This document shows, one piece after another, positions 23,277 to 40,097 of a stretch of DNA of 64,000 nt. Positions within the stretch are counted from its first letter, which is position 1; every line of letters begins with the position of its first letter. A model generated the notes under the pieces. That model did not search any database. It was not told the origin of the DNA and saw nothing but the letters and a program-made list of their open reading frames with translations. Made by a program: the position numbers and the translations under genes. Source of the DNA: Actinomycetota bacterium (GTDB taxonomy: Bacteria > Actinomycetota > Actinomycetes > Nanopelagicales > Nanopelagicaceae); the NCBI GenBank assembly GCA_015660815.1, contig JACSDF010000003.1, forward strand, positions 1 to 64,000, read 5' to 3'.

Positions 23277-24652
23277 ATCTTCTTCTCCCGATTATTAGTG
23301 GGGCTTTATTCAGTGGCGCTTTTGCTCCATTTGCATTGTGGTGGTTAGCACCGATTTCGCTAGCACTTCATATCTTTAGTCTTAGTAAGTCAGATAGACC
23401 ATTTCTTAACTCGTTTCTTTTTGCATCGGCTTTCAACGCGATCGCATTACAGTGGACTAATATTTTCGTTGGTTCAATTCCGTGGATAATTCTTTTTTGT
23501 GGGCAGGCAGCACTTTTCATTCCCCTTGGATTAGTTAAAAAGTACGGGGTCGGGTTTTATCCACTGATTTTTCTCATTTTAGAACAGGTACGTTCACTCT
23601 TTCCATTTGGGGGATTCGGGTGGCTACGCCTTGCATATTCGCAGGCCGATGCACCATATAGCCAGTTAGCAGCGATCGGGGGAGCCAGCGCACTGAGCGC
23701 TTTAGTCCTTACAATCGCATTTGCACTGTATTCACTTTTTAACTCTCGATTTAATCTATTGCCACTCTTACCGCTTGCCCTTTTACTTATACCTATTGAT
23801 GTGAAAAGCGTTGGTGAAATTCGCGCAGTTATGGTTCAAGGAAATGTTCCGCGCCTTGGTTTAGATTTTAATGATCGAGCCACTCAGGTTTTTTTCAATC
23901 ATGTACAGGAGACCAATAAGGCGTTAGCTCTGGATGAAAATGTCGATTTTATTCTTTGGCCGGAAAATGCCGTTGATGTAGATCCCTTTACCAATACGAA
24001 AGTCCGCGAAGTTCTGGACACCTTTTCACAACCTTTAATAATCGGCGCAGTAATTAGACAGGATGGTGAGTTGCTCAATACCTCGATTTTGTGGCAGAAA
24101 AGTGGCCAAGAAATCTATGTAAAGCAACATCTGACACCTTTTGGTGAATACATTCCATTGAGATCTATAGCCTCAAAAATCTCCAAGTATGTGGAGTCAG
24201 TTGAGGATTTCAGCGCAGGGAATTCATCGAAGGCTTTCACCCTCAACGGTGCGAAAATCGCTCCAATTATCTGTTACGAACTCATTGATGATGCGCTTGT
24301 GGCACGTGCAGCTAGCAATTCTCAACTACTAGTGGTTCAGACCAATAGTGCGACTTTTGGAAAATCCCCACAAAATGCTCAACAATTAGCGATCACTCGT
24401 ATCAGGGCGATTGAATATGGAAGAGATATTCTCTCGGTCTCAACAACTGGTGTATCTGCCTTCATCGATCATCGCGGAAAAATCCAGATGCAGACTAAGC
24501 CGTATCAAAGCGCACATTTATTCGTAAAACCGGCTCTCATGGATGGTCAAACGCCTAGAGACAAGGCCGGAGATTGGGCCTTAGTTGGCAGTTTAATCTG
24601 GCTACTTATCTGTGTTCGGGCAAACTCACACACCCGTAGATATCGCCGATAA
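23270..24652 (+). CDS. lnt: Apolipoprotein N-acyltransferase
   Basis: A 460-residue membrane enzyme that adds the third acyl chain to lipoproteins. About six N-terminal helices (1-180) precede a nitrilase domain with the triad E232 (WPENA), K285 (KQHLTPFGEY) and C335 (ICYE). The start appears to be TTG at 23270, overlapping the exonuclease end, since no ATG or GTG lies nearby. The first residues (NLLLPIISGALFSGAF) already form the first helix. The stop is followed at once by a palindrome and a hairpin. Confidence 0.9.
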   Translation: MVNLLLPIISGALFSGAFAPFALWWLAPISLALHIFSLSKSDRPFLNSFLFASAFNAIALQWTNIFVGSIPWIILFCGQAALFIPLGLVKKYGVGFYPLIFLILEQVRSLFPFGGFGWLRLAYSQADAPYSQLAAIGGASALSALVLTIAFALYSLFNSRFNLLPLLPLALLLIPIDVKSVGEIRAVMVQGNVPRLGLDFNDRATQVFFNHVQETNKALALDENVDFILWPENAVDVDPFTNTKVREVLDTFSQPLIIGAVIRQDGELLNTSILWQKSGQEIYVKQHLTPFGEYIPLRSIASKISKYVESVEDFSAGNSSKAFTLNGAKIAPIICYELIDDALVARAASNSQLLVVQTNSATFGKSPQNAQQLAITRIRAIEYGRDILSVSTTGVSAFIDHRGKIQMQTKPYQSAHLFVKPALMDGQTPRDKAGDWALVGSLIWLLICVRANSHTRRYRR

Positions 24653-24653
24653 G

Positions 24654-24666
24654 TTACATTATGTAA
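24654..24666. repeat. Perfect palindrome after lnt
   Basis: TTACAT-t-ATGTAA begins one base after the lnt stop codon, in the gap between two convergent genes. Its role is unknown; it could be a protein site or part of transcription termination. Confidence 0.4.
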
Positions 24667-24681
24667 AGTAATGCAGAGAAG

Positions 24682-30891: not shown

Positions 30892-32847
30892 CTAGTCGCG
30901 CTCTTTTACTCGGATTGCGACTTGGACAGGGGTGCCGGGAAAGCCAAACTCTTCGCGAAGGCGGCGCTCAATAAATCGGCGATATGAGGCCTCAATCCAG
31001 CCGCTTGAAAAGACCACGAACTTCGGAGGGGCGATTCCGGCCTGAGTCGCATAGTAAATTTTTGGCTGTTTTCCACCTCGCACCGGTGGTGGAGTTGCAC
31101 CAATCAGGGCACCTAAGAATGAATTGAGTTTTGCAGTTGGCACACGTCGCTCCCAACTATCTAGCGCGGTACGAATAGCTGGAGCTAAACGATCTCGATG
31201 CCAACCAGTTTTGGCGGCAACATTGACACGTTGTGCCCATTCAACTTGGTCTAAATGTCTATCAACTTCTCGATCTAACTGATCGCGACGATCCTCATCT
31301 ACTAAATCCCATTTGTTCATCACAATCACCATCGCTTTACCGGCCTCTTCAACCATGGTGATAACTCGCAAATCTTGTTCAGTGATCGGCTCTGATGCAT
31401 CTAGTACAACTACTGCAACTTCACATCGTTCGAGTGCGCTCTGTGTTCGAAGTGAGGCGTAGTAATCGGTACCCGATGCTTGATTAGCCCGTTTCTTCAA
31501 ACCAGCAGTGTCGATAAATCGCCAGGTCGACCCGCCGAACTCAATTAACTCATCGACTGGATCTCTCGTCGTTCCTGCAACGTCATCGACAATTGATCGG
31601 TTCTCCCCCGCTAAAGCATTAAGAAGTGAAGACTTACCGACGTTAGGTCGTCCAATCAATGCAACTTTTCTATAACCATCTTGAGTTTGTGCTCCACCAA
31701 CTTCTGGAAGCTCTGCAACTATGCGATCGAGCAAATCTCCACTGCCTCGACCATGAAGCGCAGATACAAAGTACGGCTCTCCAAGGCCTAAACTCCATAG
31801 ACCATGCGCTTCGCTCTCTTCGCGTTCACCGTCAACTTTATTACCAATTAAAATTAAAGGCTTCTTAGCTTTGCGCAGACGTTGTACCAAGATGTCATCT
31901 TCATCTAGCGCTCCAACTTGAGCATCTACAACAAAAGCTAAAACATCGGCCTCATCCATTGCAATCTCTGCACCGGCACTGACTTGAATTGAAATACCAT
32001 CGGGCTTAGCTTCCCAACCACCAGTATCCATAACAATGAAACGTCGACCGCCCCATTCGCACTCATACTGAATTCGATCACGTGTTACACCTGGCGTATC
32101 CTCAACAATCGCTTCTCGACGGCCGATAAAACGGTTAATTAACGTTGATTTACCTACATTTGGACGACCTAAAATCGCAACGATTGGAAGTCCAAGTAAA
32201 GAACGCTGACGAAGTAGCTCCCAGATTCGCTCGATAGTTTCGTCAATAGTTAGGTGAGTAGAGTCAATTTGTACACTATCTGCGGCCATAACAAATGGTG
32301 AGGCTTCACGAGTTGAATCGGCAACATCTCGTGAATCTAATGAGCTACGAACATCAACATCTTTATCCGCAGTTTCAATCTCTCGTCGTTGCGCTCGTGC
32401 ATCTAAATCAGCGGTCAAGAAGATTTTTAGCGCAGCATCTGGAGCGATCACCGTTGCAATATCACGACCTTCAACAACAATTCCTTTTTCTGAGCGTTCA
32501 ATTATTGTGCGTTGAATTTTGAAGAGTTCATTACGAATCTGCGGCATTGCACTTATTCGGCTGACGTTTTCTGTAACTGAGCTTCCGCGAATTGCATGGG
32601 TGATCTGGGTATCACCTGCAAATACTTGTGGATCGATAGGATCTGATACAAAGCGAATTGGATTGCCCTTCAACGCCGCAACAATCTCTTGCGCGTTCTC
32701 CAAATTTTTTTCAAGAGCTAACCAGGTTACGGCTCGATACAGTGCGCCAGTATCTAAATAATTCCAGCCGGCACGAACTGCAATTGCACGTGATGTACTT
32801 GACTTACCTGCCCCACTCGGGCCATCCATTGCAACGACTATGCCCAT
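30892..32847 (-). CDS. cmk-der: Fused cytidylate kinase - GTPase Der
   Basis: A 651-residue natural fusion. Residues 1-218 are cytidylate kinase (GPSGAGKSS at 9-17, EGRDIATVI), making CDP from CMP. Residues 221-651 are Der/EngA with two G domains, GRPNVGKS at 227-234 and 399-406, and a C-terminal KH-like domain; it is a 50S ribosome assembly GTPase. The cmk and der genes are adjacent in many Actinobacteria, and this fusion is known in some of them. -10 TAGGCT (32854-32859) ends 6 nt before the ATG. Joined to tyrA 16 nt upstream. Confidence 0.95.
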
Positions 32848-32862
32848 GTGATGAGCCTACTT

Positions 32863-33915
32863 CTATTTCAGAATCGGATGAACGTTCCATCCGATCGCAC
32901 TCAGATGGTTAGAGAGAGTATCTGCATCATGCGATGAGAGGGCAAGCGTTATTAGCGCACTTTGTTGACCAGGTGAGTGTTCAATATTTAAATCTTCGAC
33001 GTTAACTGAAATTGCTGCACACTCATTAAATATTGCCGCTAACTGACCAGGTTTGTCATCGATAACAATAGGAACATATGTATATTCGCGAGCCTTACCA
33101 CCATGCTTGCCTGGAATTCGCGAACGTTCAAAACGCCCCTTTTCAATAAAAGAGGCGATCGCAGTTTTACTCTCTAAATTTTCCAGTAACTCCCCAAGTT
33201 CGCGATGCATCCGTTGCACTAATCCAACAATCTGATCTCGATTTGAGAAAATAATCTCGCTCCACAGATTGGGATCAGAGGCAGCGATTCGAGTTGTATC
33301 CCTGAGCCCTGCTCCAGCTAAATCCAGCCACTCGGCCGGTGCGCTCTCCAGAGAGTGAGCCAGAAGGGTTGAAGCGATTTGCGGAAGATGAGAGATTGCA
33401 GCGACCGCTCGATCATGCTCTTCGGCAGGTAGAACGACTGCCGTTGCGCCAAGTAGATCTATGAGTTCTCGAACAATCTCTTCTGACTCTCTAGAGCATT
33501 CAGGCGTTGGCGTGATTACCCAGCTCCGGGTTGTAAAGAGATCTGCGCGGGCCGAGTGTGCTCCCCCAACCTCACGCCCTGCCATAGGATGAGTCGGAAC
33601 AAAACGTGACAAAGGCAGGCTAGAATTCTTAATATGAACTATAGGTTCAGTTTTAACACTGCCTACATCCATAAAGGTTGAGTTCGGGTTTAAAAGGAAT
33701 TCACCTTCTATGGCTAGCGGAATCGCCTCGGTTGGAATCGCTAAGACTACGAGCTCCGGAGCTTCAACTGCCTCAGCTTTAGCTAAATCATTGGCCAGGG
33801 CGGCAGCCGATGCATTGCTATCTACCAATTCAACGCGTATCCCCCGGGTGCTGAGCGCTAAAGCGATCGATGTACCAATTAATCCCGCGCCAACTATGCG
33901 TACTTGAGTCAGCAT
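32863..33915 (-). CDS. tyrA: Prephenate dehydrogenase with ACT domain
   Basis: A 350-residue enzyme that makes 4-hydroxyphenylpyruvate for tyrosine synthesis. The N-terminal Rossmann motif is GAGLIGTSIALAL, then THPMAGREVGGAHSA with the catalytic histidine, and a C-terminal ACT domain (about 285-350, IDDKPGQLAAIFNECA) suggests feedback control by tyrosine. Its start overlaps the aroH stop by one base, so the two are cotranslated. Confidence 0.93.
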   Translation of the reverse strand: MLTQVRIVGAGLIGTSIALALSTRGIRVELVDSNASAAALANDLAKAEAVEAPELVVLAIPTEAIPLAIEGEFLLNPNSTFMDVGSVKTEPIVHIKNSSLPLSRFVPTHPMAGREVGGAHSARADLFTTRSWVITPTPECSRESEEIVRELIDLLGATAVVLPAEEHDRAVAAISHLPQIASTLLAHSLESAPAEWLDLAGAGLRDTTRIAASDPNLWSEIIFSNRDQIVGLVQRMHRELGELLENLESKTAIASFIEKGRFERSRIPGKHGGKAREYTYVPIVIDDKPGQLAAIFNECAAISVNVEDLNIEHSPGQQSALITLALSSHDADTLSNHLSAIGWNVHPILK

Positions 33916-34277
33916 TACTGAGCGATATCTCGGCGCAGGGACTGCGCTCCATGAAGGTAAATATGGCTGATTTGGCCTGGAGCTATGCCGGTTTCAGCGT
34001 GCATCATGACACGGATCGTCCGCTCGAGCGCCCCCGGAACATCGACTTCGACTGCGCCGATCAATGGAACAGATTCAAAGCCGATCTCTCTACAGGCCGC
34101 TGCAGGAAAGGCGGCAGTTAAATCTGGAGTAGATGTGAAGATCACCGAAATCACAGAGCTAGGCGTGAGTGAGTTTGCGCGCATCATCGCGCCTATGAGC
34201 TCTTTGACTCCATCCCCAATTGCCTCAGGAGTATTTGCCGTAATTTGCGTGGCACCTCGCACCGCTCTCATTGACAT
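33915..34277 (-). CDS. aroH: Chorismate mutase, AroH type
   Basis: A 120-residue trimeric AroH-fold chorismate mutase that makes prephenate, the substrate of the next gene. Conserved pieces are RAVRGATQ (R7), DLTAAFPAAACRE and HIYLHGAQSLR. -10 TACCCT (34284-34289) lies 6 nt before the ATG at 34277, which supports that start over the ATG two codons on. It reads from the AT-rich repeat region upstream, which may hold its regulation. Confidence 0.92.
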   Translation of the reverse strand: MSMRAVRGATQITANTPEAIGDGVKELIGAMMRANSLTPSSVISVIFTSTPDLTAAFPAAACREIGFESVPLIGAVEVDVPGALERTIRVMMHAETGIAPGQISHIYLHGAQSLRRDIAQ

Positions 34278-34547
34278 GGGATAAGGGTACCTTTCATCTC
34301 AAAATTTCGTGGAGGTTTTAAACTCAATTAAGTGTTTAATACCTTTGTCGATATAACTGTTTTACTACATTCATGATCTGTACTACCTGTACTGCACAAA
34401 TCCATTCATCTTTTTAGATTATCGATATATCGTTAATCACTACGCTTAACTTGCTCGTTAAATGTCGATATATCGGTTATGTTTACATCTAATATCGATA
34501 TAACTATAAAACGCTTTTAGTCTTAATATTGCTTTATGGTTATATCT
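34278..34547. repeat. AT-rich gap with four TCGATATA sites and an inverted repeat
   Basis: A 270-bp gap, the longest one without a gene outside the rRNA region. TCGATATA occurs at 34348, 34422, 34465 and 34495; the middle two continue into the perfect palindrome CGATATATCG (34423-34432 and 34466-34475) and the outer two read TCGATATAAC. A further inverted repeat GGTTATA-TCTC-TATAACC (34538-34555) overlaps the last codons of rluB. Spacings (74, 43, 30 nt) are irregular. This looks like a protein-binding region, perhaps an operator for aroH or a partition site for the ParA/RHH genes; neither is shown. Confidence 0.6.
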
Positions 34548-35261
34548 CTATAACCCCAAAACGTTTCGTAGATTTGTCAACTCCCCCGAGTTCAGGTCTC
34601 GCCATCTCCCCTCAGGAGTATCCCCCAAAGAGATTGGACCAAAGCGCGTCCGGATCAATCGCAACACGTCAACATCGACGGCCTCCATGAGTCGACGAAT
34701 TATGTGATAGCGGCCTTCGTGAATTGTTACTTCAATCCATCTGGCGGAGAGCTCTTTAAACTCTAAAACTCGACCCATTCCATCCTCTAGCTCAACACCC
34801 TTCAGAAGTGTCTTATCGACCCCACTCGGCAGTTTTCCGTCGTATTCAATAATATAGGTTTTTTCCAATCCAAAGGATGGATGCGTGGCCCTAAATGTTA
34901 AATCACCATCATTAGTTAAAAGAATCAGTCCCTCAGAATCCTTATCCAAGCGCCCAACATGAAATAAGCGCTCTCGTCGAAGATCTATAAAATCACTCAA
35001 TGAGGGGCGTCCATCGGGGTCGTACATGGTAGACAAAACGCCTTTTGGTTTATGAAGTGCTAGATAACTCTTAGTCATTGAGCGCTTAATTGTCTCACCA
35101 TCAACTGCTACTTTAACCTTTTCTGGGTCGAATTTGGAGCCCATTGCTCGGACTGCGATTCCATCGACTGTAACTCGCCCAGACTCTATGAGCTCATCTG
35201 CACCGCGACGACTAGTTATTCCTGCATCAGCGATGATCTTATTAAGGCGCATATCGCCCAT
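34548..35261 (-). CDS. 23S rRNA pseudouridine synthase, RluB/RsuA type
   Basis: A 237-residue enzyme with an N-terminal S4 domain (about 4-60) and the RsuA-type catalytic motif GRLDKDSEGLILLTND (D106). It most likely modifies 23S rRNA helix 69-90 region, or 16S rRNA; substrate is inferred. ATG with GGGAG 6 nt upstream. It follows scpB by 40 nt in the same direction, as in mycobacterial Rv1710-Rv1711. Confidence 0.9.
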   Translation of the reverse strand: MGDMRLNKIIADAGITSRRGADELIESGRVTVDGIAVRAMGSKFDPEKVKVAVDGETIKRSMTKSYLALHKPKGVLSTMYDPDGRPSLSDFIDLRRERLFHVGRLDKDSEGLILLTNDGDLTFRATHPSFGLEKTYIIEYDGKLPSGVDKTLLKGVELEDGMGRVLEFKELSARWIEVTIHEGRYHIIRRLMEAVDVDVLRLIRTRFGPISLGDTPEGRWRDLNSGELTNLRNVLGL

Positions 35262-35301: not shown

Positions 35302-35853
35302 CTACTCTGTTAGCGAATCGAGGATATCGTCAAGCGCCTCTAGATTTGGCAAGTAGGGGGCCAAGGCAGGTAGATCATCGAGTGAGTTCAAGCCTAGCCT
35401 TTCGAGAAAGAAGCTTGTAGTCCGGTATAAAATAGCGCCAGTCTCATGCTCTAGGCCCGACTCTTCGACCAGACCCCTCGTGATGAGCGTCTTCATGACC
35501 GCTTCCACGTTCACACCACGAATAGCAGAGACTCTGGCGCGAGATACTGGCTGACGATAAGCGACCACCGAGAGCGTTTCAAGGGCGGCCTGAGTCAGGC
35601 GTGACTGTTGACCGTCCAGCACAAATCGCTCAACTACTCCCGCTAAATCTGGATGACTATAAAACCGCCACCCCCCACCGATCTTCTTTAAGGCGAAGCC
35701 ACGATCCTCATAACTCTGGCTTAGTCGAGTTAACGCAGCCTCAATCTCATCGACTGTGCGTTCAAGAACTTGGGCAAGCGTGAGCTCAGTAACGGGCTCA
35801 TCAACGACCATCAAGATCGCCTCAATCGAACGGTCAACCTCTACATTAGACAT
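35302..35853 (-). CDS. scpB: Segregation and condensation protein B
   Basis: A 183-residue condensin subunit with two winged-helix domains (VDRSIEAILMVVDEPV... and AALETLSVVAYRQPVSRARVSAIRGVN). It binds ScpA and SMC to organise the chromosome. I use the ATG at 35853 (MSNVEVDRS), which overlaps the end of scpA by 8 nt; a longer frame from 35877 is possible. Confidence 0.93.
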   Translation of the reverse strand: MSNVEVDRSIEAILMVVDEPVTELTLAQVLERTVDEIEAALTRLSQSYEDRGFALKKIGGGWRFYSHPDLAGVVERFVLDGQQSRLTQAALETLSVVAYRQPVSRARVSAIRGVNVEAVMKTLITRGLVEESGLEHETGAILYRTTSFFLERLGLNSLDDLPALAPYLPNLEALDDILDSLTE

Positions 35854-36721
35854 TTTCACTACTTTCCGGTTCTCCATCTAGATCTAAAACTACTGGAATA
35901 TCAAACTCATCGCTGACTTCAACCTCACCGGAGAGTGAACCGGTCCAAGAGATCTGCAGCTCACCAAGGGCTACGACCTGATTAAAGCGTAAAACACCCT
36001 GGCGATAGAGATCAAGGAGCGCTAAAAAGCGGGCAACTACGACCATTGTGCTATCGGCATCGGAGATTAATGTTCTAAAAGAGAGGGTCATTGAGCGTCT
36101 TAAAGCCTCCACTACACCTTTAGACTCCTCGGCGACGCTGACCATCGTGTGGTGTAGATGTTCAACGCTAACCACCGGCGCGCTCTTGGGAGTAAGTACG
36201 CGCTCGGCAATAGCTGCAAATCGAGAGGCACCGACCCCGATTAATACCTCGGGCAGTAGGGCGCTCAGAGCGGGTTCTAGGGCCACAACTCGGGCAAATG
36301 ACTTATCGGCAAGGGCTATACGCACGGCAAAGGTTGAAGCGATCTCTTTAAAGGCGCGATATTGCAGCAAGCGTGCAAAGAGAATATCTCTGGCTTCGAG
36401 AAGGGCTAGATCCTCTTCATCATCGACCTCACCGCTAGGTAAAAGTCTGGCAGCTTTAAGGTCGAGCAGCGTGGCCGCCACAACGAGAAACTCGGTCGCC
36501 TGATCTAAGCGCCAGCCTTCACCGCTGAGTTCGAGGTTTCGGATAAATGAGATGAACTCATCGGTGACGATACTCAAGGAGATTTCCGTGATATCCATCT
36601 TGTGGCGCGAAATTAGCTGGAGCAGGAGATCAAAAGGGCCATCAAAGTTTTCAAGATGAACCGAAAATGCACCGCTGCTAGCGGCATTCACATCGGTCGA
36701 TTCATCCATTGAAAGATCCAT
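35846..36721 (-). CDS. scpA: Segregation and condensation protein A
   Basis: A 291-residue kleisin of the SMC-ScpAB condensin. The N-terminal FSVHLENFDGPFDLLLQLISRHKMDI is the family hallmark, and the C-terminal winged helix binds the SMC head. -10 TAAGGT (36728-36733) ends 6 nt before the ATG at 36721, so a leaderless start is likely. It is divergent from parA; scpB overlaps its end. Confidence 0.93.
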   Translation of the reverse strand: MDLSMDESTDVNAASSGAFSVHLENFDGPFDLLLQLISRHKMDITEISLSIVTDEFISFIRNLELSGEGWRLDQATEFLVVAATLLDLKAARLLPSGEVDDEEDLALLEARDILFARLLQYRAFKEIASTFAVRIALADKSFARVVALEPALSALLPEVLIGVGASRFAAIAERVLTPKSAPVVSVEHLHHTMVSVAEESKGVVEALRRSMTLSFRTLISDADSTMVVVARFLALLDLYRQGVLRFNQVVALGELQISWTGSLSGEVEVSDEFDIPVVLDLDGEPESSENV

Positions 36722-36800
36722 GGAGGCACCTTACTTCACAGTTGCCCCAACTCTGTGTAAGGCGTAGGCTCCCGCAAATATCAAGAAAGAGGTTTGACGT

Positions 36801-37685
36801 TTGAGCGCTAAATCGACAATTCGAGAAGAGATCTCCACTACTTCAACGTTACTAGGCAAAAAAGCGTTAAATTTTCCCACCCCCACTGCGATTAGCGAAC
36901 ATGGGGGCGCAAAGGTTATTGCTGTCTTTAATCAAAAAGGTGGTGTCGGAAAGACTACGACGACCATCAACCTAGGTGCGGCTCTGGCCGAATTTGGTCG
37001 ACGAGTACTGCTCGTTGACTTCGACCCACAGGGCGGTTTATCTCTCGGCCTGGGTGTTAATGCACACTCACTTCCACTTGAGCAGACCGTGTACTACGCG
37101 CTAATGACCCCAACAGCTGCGATAGATACGATTATTTTGAAATCCTCTGTCGCAGGTCTGGATTTTCTACCGGCTAACCGCGATCTTGGAACTGCCGAAA
37201 CAACTCTTGGTGCTGAAATCGGTGGACAGCAGTATTTAAAACGCGCCCTGACATCTTTGCGTGATTACTACGACGTTATTTTAATCGACTGCCAACCGAC
37301 TATGGGTCAGTTAACAATTAACGCCCTGGTTGCAGCCGATGAAGTCATCGTGCCACTTCAATGCGAATACTTTGCCCTACATGGATTTATCGAACTTAAA
37401 GGAAATCTCGATAAAGTCAAAACATTTCTCAATCCAAATCTAACTCTTGTCGGAATTCTTGCAACTATGTACGACAAAAAAACATCACATAATCGACAGG
37501 TACTCGAAAGAATTCTTGAACAGTTCCCTGCCGATGTCTTTGAAACAATCATTGCAAAAACGATTCGTTTTCCAGAAACAACGGTCGTTGGTGAACCGAT
37601 TACTACGTATGCCTCGTCATCTGATGGCGCAGCATCGTATCGACGACTAGCACGTGAACTAATCTTCCGAGGAGGCGCACGATGA
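36801..37685 (+). CDS. ParA family ATPase
   Basis: A 294-residue ParA/MinD-type ATPase with deviant Walker A KGGVGKTT (46-53), DFDPQGGLS and a C-terminal [15 protein letters not shown]. An N-terminal stretch of about 36 residues precedes the ATPase fold. TTG start at 36801 with AGAGG 7 nt upstream. It is not the oriC ParA (no parB downstream) but the paralogue next to scpA known from Actinobacteria (Rv1708-like). It overlaps the RHH gene by 4 nt (ATGA), which suggests they act together. Confidence 0.92.
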   Translation: MSAKSTIREEISTTSTLLGKKALNFPTPTAISEHGGAKVIAVFNQKGGVGKTTTTINLGAALAEFGRRVLLVDFDPQGGLSLGLGVNAHSLPLEQTVYYALMTPTAAIDTIILKSSVAGLDFLPANRDLGTAETTLGAEIGGQQYLKRALTSLRDYYDVILIDCQPTMGQLTINALVAADEVIVPLQCEYFALHGFIELKGNLDKVKTFLNPNLTLVGILATMYDKKTSHNRQVLERILEQFPADVFETIIAKTIRFPETTVVGEPITTYASSSDGAASYRRLARELIFRGGAR

Positions 37686-38092
37686 CCCGCAGAGCAAATC
37701 TTCCAGGTGCCGATGAGCTCTTTCGCTCAACAACACCGGCGCTTACATCAGTGCCCACATCAGGTGAGGCCAGCGCGCCACTTGTGCCACCCACTATCGC
37801 TACACCAAAAGCACCATCGGTAAACAAAGGTGTGCGCTCGATTGCCAGACGACGTGTAACAACTGTTGACCGCTCCCCTTCAGGTCGCGAACGCCATGAT
37901 GAAAAAATTACCGTCTACCTATCCCCCGATGAGCTCTTTGATTTAGATCAAGCACGTTTACTGTTGCGTGGAGATTTAGGTTTAGCTGCAGATCGCGGAA
38001 GAATTGTTCGCGAATCAATTGCAGTGATCATCGCCGATCTTGAAGCAAAAGGTGATCAAAGTATTTTAGCTCGCAGACTTCGAGGTTTATAA
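37682..38092 (+). CDS. Ribbon-helix-helix protein, likely ParA partner
   Basis: A 136-residue basic protein. Residues 1-75 are low-complexity and rich in Pro, Thr, Ala and Arg. The C-terminal part reads HDEKITVYLSPDELFDLDQ (strand) followed by two helices that end in RESIAVIIADLEAKGD, the pattern of a CopG/ParG-type ribbon-helix-helix domain. A gene of this size directly behind parA, translated by ATGA overlap, is the usual place for a DNA-binding partition partner. Whether it binds the TCGATATA sites 3-kb away is a hypothesis. It ends 9 nt before the convergent xerD. Confidence 0.75.
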   Translation: MTRRANLPGADELFRSTTPALTSVPTSGEASAPLVPPTIATPKAPSVNKGVRSIARRRVTTVDRSPSGRERHDEKITVYLSPDELFDLDQARLLLRGDLGLAADRGRIVRESIAVIIADLEAKGDQSILARRLRGL

Positions 38093-38101
38093 GAGCTTCA
38101 C

Positions 38102-39019
38102 TTACGCACGAGGGTGTGCCATCGCATAACTCTCGCGCACTCTATCGATTGTAATCAACGTATAAATCTGCGTTGTAGTCACTGATGCATGGCCTAGCAG
38201 TTCTTGCACCACGCGAATATCTGCACCTCCATCTAAGAGATGGGTGGCATATGAGTGTCTAAAAACATGGGGCGTAACTTTTTGAGTAATTCCTGCCGAC
38301 TCTGCCGCTCTTAAAACAATGTTCCACGCCGATTGCCTAGTAATACGGCCCCCACGAGCGTTGAGAAAGAGCGCCGAATTAGCCTTTGAACTCTTCGCGG
38401 CGAGTTCTGGACGAATTCGGGTTTTGTATTCATCAATGGCTTTAGTCGCAAAAGCACCTAAAGGAACAACTCGTTCTTTACCACCTTTTCCCCGCAATTT
38501 GAGCGTAGTGATTTCGCCCTCTTCGCTCTCTACTAATGAGATATCCCCCATATTGATTCCAATGAGTTCACTTACTCGCGCACCACTGCTATAGAGAAGT
38601 TCAACCATAGTTTGATCGCGCAACGTGATTGGTTGGCCCTCATGCAGAGCTGCTGCGATTAATTTAATAATATCTTCAACACTTAGAGCCTTTGGAAGCC
38701 TTCTTGCCGTTTTACTGCTTTCAATTTCCAGTGTGGGATCGGCAAATCCATGCTCTAACTGCAGATATTTAAAAAAAGTACGAAGCGTTGATTCAATCCG
38801 ATTAATACTCGCCGCGGCTAATTTGGCATGCTTTAAATCTGATATAAATTCAGCGATCTTCGTTGAATCTATATCTTCCACCCTGCTTTGACCCAAGAAC
38901 TCTGAAAGTTTACTTAAATCACGTCGATATGCAGCAACTGAATTAGCGGCTAATCCTCGCTCAATCGAAACGTGATTGAGAAATGACTGCGCTAGCGCAT
39001 CAAAATTTAACGTAATCAT
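38102..39019 (-). CDS. xerD: Site-specific tyrosine recombinase XerD
   Basis: A 305-residue tyrosine recombinase that resolves chromosome dimers at dif. It has an N-terminal SAM-like core-binding domain (FLNHVSIERGLAANSVAAYRRDL) and the catalytic set R148 (GARVSEL), H251-R254 (HVFRHSYATHLL), H277 (LLGHASV) and Y286 (TQIYT). The start lies inside the end of ald: ATG at 39019 or 39025. No dif-like site is obvious here. Mycobacterial xerD is also close to pyrG. Confidence 0.92.
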   Translation of the reverse strand: MITLNFDALAQSFLNHVSIERGLAANSVAAYRRDLSKLSEFLGQSRVEDIDSTKIAEFISDLKHAKLAAASINRIESTLRTFFKYLQLEHGFADPTLEIESSKTARRLPKALSVEDIIKLIAAALHEGQPITLRDQTMVELLYSSGARVSELIGINMGDISLVESEEGEITTLKLRGKGGKERVVPLGAFATKAIDEYKTRIRPELAAKSSKANSALFLNARGGRITRQSAWNIVLRAAESAGITQKVTPHVFRHSYATHLLDGGADIRVVQELLGHASVTTTQIYTLITIDRVRESYAMAHPRA

Positions 39020-40097
39020 ACCCATGTGCCTGGGCTACAGCTTCGTAGTAAATCTGACCGTTATGAACATTCAACCCTTTTGCAAGATTGGAGTCTTTTT
39101 CACATGCTAATTTCCAACCATTATTAGCAATAGATAGTGCATAAGGCAGCGTTGCATTAGTTAAAGCGTAGGTGGAAGTTACTGGAACTGCGCCCGGCAT
39201 ATTTGCTACGCAGTAGAAAACCGATCCATGAACCGCAAATGTTGGCTCTGCATGTGTGGTGGGGCGGCTATCTTCAAAACATCCGCCTTGATCAATTGCG
39301 ATATCGACTAAGACTGAACCGCTCTTCATAGTTTTAACTAATTCGTTAGAAATTAATTTCGGCGCTTTAGCACCATGGACAAGCACTGCACCAATCACTA
39401 AATCAGCTAAACGCGCTTCGCGTTCAATTGCATGTGGTGACGAAACGAGCGTTTTAATTCTTCCGTTGTAAGCAGAATCAATGTACTGCAACCTAGAAAT
39501 TGAGCGATCTAAAATCGTTACATCTGCGCCAAGCCCAATCGCCATTATGGCGGCATTTAATCCGGCCGTTCCCCCACCAATCACAACTACATGGGCAGGT
39601 GCGACTCCGGGTACACCGCCTAATAAGACTCCGCGGCCACCGTTAGGTCGTTGCAAAGTGCTCGCGCCAACTTGAGTAGCTAACCGTCCTGCGACTTCAC
39701 TCATTGGCGAAAGCAGTGGAAGTGCACCGTTTACTTCAACAGTCTCATAAGCAATGGCCGTTGTCTTGCTGGCGATTAACGCATCGGTGCAAGGTCTAGA
39801 AGCGGCAAGGTGAAGATAGGTAAAAAGAGTCTGACCTTGACGCATTTTTAGATACTCAGCCTCAATCGGCTCTTTCACTTTTAGAATTAAATCCGCAGAA
39901 CTCCACACGCCATCGCTATCGCTAACAATGCTCGCACCGGCTGCGATGAAATCCTCATTGAGAATGGCAGAGCCCACGCCTGCCCCATCTTCGATAATTA
40001 CTGTATGACCTGCGGCTACGAATTCGCTCACACCTTCTGGAGTAATCGCTACACGAGACTCATGAACTTTAATCTCTTTCGGAACTCCAACAATCAT
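39000..40097 (-). CDS. ald: Alanine dehydrogenase
   Basis: A 365-residue NAD-dependent enzyme that interconverts alanine and pyruvate plus ammonia. The start MIVGVPKEIKVHESRVAITPEGV is typical, and the nucleotide motif VIGGGTAGLNAA follows in the middle. AAGGG lies 9 nt before the ATG, and it starts 5 nt after pyrG. It overlaps xerD by about 20 nt. Confidence 0.95.
   Translation of the reverse strand: MIVGVPKEIKVHESRVAITPEGVSEFVAAGHTVIIEDGAGVGSAILNEDFIAAGASIVSDSDGVWSSADLILKVKEPIEAEYLKMRQGQTLFTYLHLAASRPCTDALIASKTTAIAYETVEVNGALPLLSPMSEVAGRLATQVGASTLQRPNGGRGVLLGGVPGVAPAHVVVIGGGTAGLNAAIMAIGLGADVTILDRSISRLQYIDSAYNGRIKTLVSSPHAIEREARLADLVIGAVLVHGAKAPKLISNELVKTMKSGSVLVDIAIDQGGCFEDSRPTTHAEPTFAVHGSVFYCVANMPGAVPVTSTYALTNATLPYALSIANNGWKLACEKDSNLAKGLNVHNGQIYYEAVAQAHGYDYVKF

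Follow-up and report, generated by a model that had tools for sequence, protein, structure and literature searches.

The window, which is the whole stretch of 64,000 nucleotides analyzed here and comes from a freshwater bacterium, had a GC content of 46.5% versus 31% in the 270-bp gap bordered by rluB and aroH (Table 1). A ParA ATPase, a small protein, and ScpA and ScpB had been assigned to the vicinity of this gap by the original prediction, as had aroH and tyrA, and all of these genes were located as described. A conserved promoter-like TANNNT sequence, visible in 53 aligned gaps and covered by positions 34278 to 34295 of the window, ended a few bases before the ATG of aroH, and this position suggests that the aroH transcript may be leaderless. 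As a separate observation, one open reading frame of 651 amino acids at positions 30892 to 32847 read by inspection as a fusion of cytidylate kinase (cmk) and the GTPase Der (EngA), which aligned only partly as a single piece in several other families.

Table 1. Coordinates of the genes and sites at the locus (window positions)
Feature	Position	Strand	Remarks
dif site ATCGCCGATAAGTTACATTATGTAAAGT	24642..24669	+	No other exact match genome-wide; 9.6 kb to the array
aroH (chorismate mutase)	33915..34277	-	Pfam CM_1
AT-rich rluB-aroH gap, proposed centromere-like array	34278..34547	.	270 bp, 31% GC
Array site 1, TTGTCGATATAACTGTT	34345..34361	+	Motif matrix and sequence
Array site 2, TTATCGATATATCGTTA	34419..34435	+	Two 8-bp boxes; motif matrix and sequence
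Array site 3, ATGTCGATATATCGGTT	34462..34478	+	Motif matrix and sequence
Array site 4, ATATCGATATAACTATA	34492..34508	+	Motif matrix and sequence
Putative degenerate fifth site, GGTTATATCTCTATAACC	34534..34555	.	Overlap with rluB stop codon; a site at this gap end also exists in relatives
rluB	34548..35261	-	
scpB and scpA (condensin partners)	35302..36721	-	Between ParA and array; Pfam SMC_ScpB, SMC_ScpA
ParA-family ATPase, ParA2/PldP ortholog by locus order	36801..37685	+	Pfam AAA_31, E=1e-53; Walker motif KGGVGKTT
Proposed parA-RHH operator, AATCGACA/ATTCGAGA	36811..36826	.	In the first parA codons (start TTG, 36801); matrix match at 36798 on the minus strand
Small basic RHH-like protein	37682..38092	+	4-bp overlap with parA; same operon
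xerD (dif recombinase gene)	38102..39025	-	Adjoins the RHH-like gene; Pfam Phage_integrase

The window spans the terminus of chromosome replication. The cumulative GC skew of the source genome had its maximum at position 24232, and the dif site, immediately downstream of gcvP, coincided with the GC-skew switch. The GC-skew peaks were about 0.1 to 1.7 kb away from dif. In two complete genomes with dnaA at the start of the sequence (G014 and G015), the array was found at 50 to 52% of the chromosome, opposite dnaA. The relatives checked likewise had one exact dif site at a distance of about 10 kb to the array, with the exceptions of one genome with a second exact match (G002) and one with none (G055).

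Structure and uniqueness of the site array

The repeated element had originally been described as the octamer TCGATATA, four copies of which should be located within about 155 bp, two of them inside perfect palindromes. The copies were indeed there: TCGATATA occurred five times in the window (1.67 expected), four of these at positions 34348 to 34502, and two of the four were part of perfect CGATATATCG palindromes. Both copies of CGATATATCG in the window were in the gap (0.02 expected), and only three existed in the 1.585-Mb genome, the third being a lone single copy (C11:3997). The unit of the repeat, nevertheless, is longer than the octamer and consists of two 8-bp boxes. The sites in the gap shared the motif TRTCGATAAATCGNTWTT, which is built from tandem 8-bp boxes, and there were four such sites, or five when a degenerate copy is included. 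This copy concerns the inverted repeat GGTTATA-TCTC-TATAACC at positions 34538 to 34555, across the rluB stop codon at 34548, which was also present as predicted and reads as a candidate degenerate fifth site of the array.

The motif matrix derived from 210 sites was WWTRTCGATAAATCGNTWTT, in which AATCGNTA comes after TATCGATA. The boxes of the array are of the RTCGAYAW type, with two or more tandem 8-bp boxes per site. TCGATATA is the variant of the source strain, and TCGATAAA is that of most relatives; 103 copies of TCGATAAA were counted in 53 gaps versus 2.6 expected from dinucleotide shuffles, which yielded 40-fold fewer. An autocorrelation of the 53 gaps had its top at a lag of 8 (z=13, a value inflated by counting related genomes as independent), with more peaks at 16 and 24. 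Occurrence of the repeat in distant GC-rich families is a more independent check than this z-score. CG steps 8 bp apart exceeded the expectation 2.5-fold, and 8 bp was the commonest distance in the other families, too. MetJ, a repressor of the ribbon-helix-helix (RHH) type, binds to tandem 8-bp boxes.

Frequent occurrence of the sites elsewhere would have spoken against the original prediction, and they were not frequent. All 13 exact matches to the long pattern in ten genomes were within the rluB-aroH gap, and when one mismatch was allowed, the matches outside the gap were isolated singles. This pattern search of the ten genomes yielded one cluster per genome and no second array. In the named loci, 59 sites scoring >13 bits were found in 1.06 Mb of flanking DNA versus 274 sites in 18 kb of gap DNA, the latter counted with a lower cut-off of >9 bits. 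Chance AT-rich repeats were rejected as an origin of the array by the shuffles and by the conservation among relatives. Two other candidates for the content of the gap were ruled out: an RNA element, since there was no Rfam match at 34 to 35 kb, and dif itself, which is 9.6 kb away.

Conservation of the array and its distance to dif

Twenty genomes from the same genus had a gap with a length of 265 to 286 bp that was packed with related sites, while the remainder had diverged. The other genera of the Nanopelagicaceae, the family of Candidatus Planktophila and its kin, displayed the same layout in gaps of 241 to 331 bp, and the array was found in all readable genera of the family, in both orientations of the parA-RHH pair. 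Among 68 named loci, 67 gaps contained three to five sites and one contained two. The mean column identity in 28 gaps from the same genus was 64% for the sites versus 37% for the spacers. Persistence among relatives had been named beforehand as a test of the original prediction; the sites did persist in all genera of the family and in sister families next to diverged spacers, and free variation among close relatives was not seen. The sister families with a retained array (f11, f12, f24, f26, f30, f37, and f38) were GC rich, with genomes of 65 to 75% GC. The array adjoined aroH in every case in which the reading covered both gap ends.

Some public contigs from metagenome-assembled genomes (L191, L194, L220, L223, L229, L236, L252, L264, L266, and L263) with the title Bifidobacterium breve or, in one case, Candidatus Fonsibacter lacus carried a Nanopelagicaceae-type locus. 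These titles look mislabeled.

The array was not detected in the RHH-positive families f17, f19, f25, and f41 and in two members of f14. A search for TGTCGAYA pairs in the RHH-positive families without an array at aroH returned a single pair in one Streptomyces-like genome, which was taken as a chance event. Autoregulation by the RHH-like protein may be the ancestral state, with a terminus array in some lineages only, or the array of these families may have a form that was missed. Families without an RHH-like protein had a rluB-aroH gap of 50 to 117 bp and no array.

The distance between array and dif was 9.6 to 12.3 kb within the family, including about 12 kb in a genus with colinear gene order. 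It increased in other families to 14.4 kb (f38, dif with two mismatches), 20.7 kb (f26, one mismatch), 25.5 kb (f24), and 27 kb (f11). The dif site was on a different contig from the array in f12 and f30, and none turned up in the part that was read in f37. In three genomes without an array (f17 and f41), dif was 518 to 813 kb away from the ParA2 locus. It is suggestive that presence of the array goes along with proximity to the terminus, in a small sample to which shared gene order contributes.

The parA-RHH operon

The ParA encoded here can be assigned to the actinobacterial ParA2/PldP because its gene is placed between xerD and scpA-scpB-rluB. In f38 and most genera of the family, the parA-RHH pair was inverted in place with respect to scpA-xerD; it was colinear in the genera g22, g26, g29, and g31 and in most other families. 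A separate ParA and parS-like sites were located beside oriC in these genomes; since oriC possesses its own set, the ParA2 locus is a second system. Such a second ParA is reported for all actinobacteria (PMC4255298). PldP of Corynebacterium glutamicum forms foci at the nascent septum, and its deletion leads to minicells (reviewed in PMC4255298 and PMC3989709). ParA2/PldP has been described as an orphan without a partner ParB (PMC3989709), and no report of an RHH partner or a DNA array for it was found in the literature. The ParA2 gene of this family is accompanied by a partner-like gene: the gene for the small RHH-like protein overlapped parA by 4 bp in 17 of 17 genera. The placement of the locus near dif at the terminus of replication and the identity of its ParA as the "orphan" ParA2/PldP go beyond the original prediction.

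Within the family, 82 of 84 good genomes and each of the 17 genera had the gene for the RHH-like protein; at the level of the class, 186 of 393 genomes had it. In the gene product, SRRxSLPGADELFR at the N terminus is invariant, the linker varies, and the C-terminal domain, EKITVYLSxxELxxLxxAxLxLRxxxGLAxDRGRIVRE, is conserved. No sequence match was obtained in Pfam, NCBIfam, PHROGs, or PDB. A strand-helix-helix pattern suggests an RHH fold. Comparison with four solved RHH proteins by hhalign gave a weak match (E=1e-3, probability 21%) that was poor in the second half, with a score of 19.8 versus a maximum of 13 for shuffled sequences. The AlphaFold (AF2) model of the single chain was of low confidence (pTM 0.29), and Foldseek with this model returned no useful match and none to an RHH protein. 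Because support for the fold is weak, the protein is named "RHH-like." The proposal of a centromere-like site for a ParA/RHH pair is supported in part, namely by the persistence and uniqueness of the sites and by their tie to the RHH-like gene, and weakly with regard to the RHH fold.

Repeats of the array type were also present at the start of the parA-RHH operon itself, as judged from the presence of the sites. The motif occupied the same position in nearly all family members. In other families it overlapped or preceded the start of parA (TGTCGACA, AAGTCGACA), frequently together with another box at a distance of 8 bp, and was found in 18 of 20 RHH-positive genomes versus none of five RHH-negative genomes (Fisher P=4e-4, uncorrected for kinship). 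Three loci added later were mixed: one RHH-positive locus with the site, another without, and one with a very weak homolog and no site. A part of the conservation of these boxes could be at the protein level because they fall partly into codons. Since the motif accompanies the operon and the protein, the RHH-like protein is the best candidate for its binder, and it very likely binds the sites of the array, as predicted from this co-occurrence.

A putative partition module at the terminus

The gap is probably a conserved array of sites for the RHH-like protein and, together with ParA2 and this protein, would form a centromere-like module at the terminus. Conservation, uniqueness, and 8-bp phasing of the array, its link to the RHH-like gene, and its position at the terminus come from the computation itself; binding by the RHH-like protein is strongly indicated by the sequence data, and a function of the array in partition is plausible. 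The anatomy of the locus resembles that of ParA/RHH partition systems: an ATPase, a small partner from the same operon, a repeat array, and repeats at the operon start. In such a module, the RHH-like protein would bind the four to five sites of two or more tandem 8-bp boxes in the gap and assemble a partition complex there, and it would regulate parA-RHH, its own operon, by binding to such boxes at the operon start, as is usual for RHH partition proteins. The conserved, arginine-bearing N-terminal SRRxSLPGADELFR may stimulate ParA2, and ParA2 together with the array-bound RHH-like protein would serve to place the dif/terminus region at the division site or to segregate it there; we infer autoregulation, ATPase stimulation, and terminus positioning. 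The most likely job would be that the dif region is placed or separated at division via ParA2, with a role as a marker of the terminus close behind.

Alternatively, the array may have no role in segregation and be an operator of the aroH-tyrA unit to which the RHH-like protein or some other regulator binds. Its location upstream of aroH wherever both gap ends were read and the TANNNT sequence just before the aroH ATG agree with this possibility, which the original prediction had already raised. The sites, however, start upstream of the expected -35 and run for about 200 bp to the rluB stop, outside the core promoter. The motif follows the parA-RHH operon even in families without an array at aroH, and the RHH-negative families retain aroH by rluB with the short gap and without an array. 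We are not aware of any physiological connection of the ParA2 locus with aromatic amino acids. Because of the position of the sites upstream of the aroH core promoter and the association of the motif with the parA operon, an operator function is the weaker explanation and on the whole unlikely.

Neighborhood of dif, xerD, and scpAB, together with the interaction of Rv1708, the ParA2 ortholog of Mycobacterium tuberculosis, with ScpA and ParB (PMC10482377), could indicate instead that the RHH-like protein organizes the terminus. It would mark ter as MatP does and act on SMC-ScpAB, FtsK, or XerD, with ParA2 being secondary. This, too, is rather improbable: there is one cluster and no sites scattered over the ter domain, and the RHH-like gene shares the parA operon with a 4-bp overlap. 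Conservation of the sites as a by-product of AT-rich intergenic composition, or due to a DNA-binding protein unrelated to ParA2, is very improbable. Palindromes of AT-rich words do arise more easily in an AT-rich gap, but the dinucleotide shuffles, survival of the motif in genomes of 65 to 75% GC, and its co-occurrence with the RHH-like gene argue against such an origin.

The partition module at the terminus, formed by ParA2, the RHH-like protein, and the array, thus remains the preferred reading. On a wider scale, it is conceivable, albeit with somewhat more doubt than trust, that many Actinomycetes possess a second chromosomal partition system for the terminus, consisting of ParA2/PldP, a so far undescribed RHH-like partner, and an array beside dif. 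ParA2/PldP, including Rv1708 of M. tuberculosis and the protein of C. glutamicum, has so far been treated as an orphan in division-site selection. If the assumption is true, it would account for the septal foci of this "orphan," provide PldP with the partner and the DNA target that it has lacked, and couple segregation of the terminus with dif resolution and the choice of the division site. It would also allow a direct test of how terminus segregation is linked to septum placement. Known chromosomal ParABS systems of bacteria are mostly origin movers, and a ParA that has a site array of its own near dif would be a system of the partition type that serves the terminus.

Compared with the plasmid ParA/RHH systems, such as delta-omega of pSM19035 and ParF-ParG of TP228, the locus has in common a ParA and a small basic protein in one operon, an array of tandem short repeats with the same repeats at the operon start, and a basic segment at the N terminus of the small protein. 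The tandem 7-bp direct repeats of RHH partition systems overlap the promoters of these systems as well (PMC9499535). The locus described here differs in being chromosomal and at the replication terminus, with the array 2.2 kb from parA, in its spaced pairs of 8-bp boxes instead of 7 to 10 contiguous 7-bp repeats, and in its partner, whose RHH fold is putative. With ParA2/PldP (Cg1610 of C. glutamicum, Rv1708 of M. tuberculosis, and SCO1772 of Streptomyces coelicolor), it shares the neighbors xerD, scpA, scpB, and rluB and the ParA family, but those were described without a partner ParB (PMC3989709), whereas the locus here has both a partner-like gene and an array of sites. SegA-SegB of Sulfolobus is composed of a chromosomal ParA-like ATPase and an RHH site-binding partner (PMC9178275). 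The likeness to this archaeal system, a chromosomal ParA-like ATPase with a site-binding partner that is RHH in SegB and RHH-like here, is drawn from the system layout. To our knowledge, no position at the terminus or dif is known for SegA-SegB. In enterobacteria, the terminus near dif is marked by MatP, which has an RHH domain, bound to matS. Both loci combine the terminus near dif with a site-binding protein, a predicted one in our case; matS sites, however, are scattered over the ter domain and work without a ParA, whereas here one cluster is accompanied by a ParA operon.
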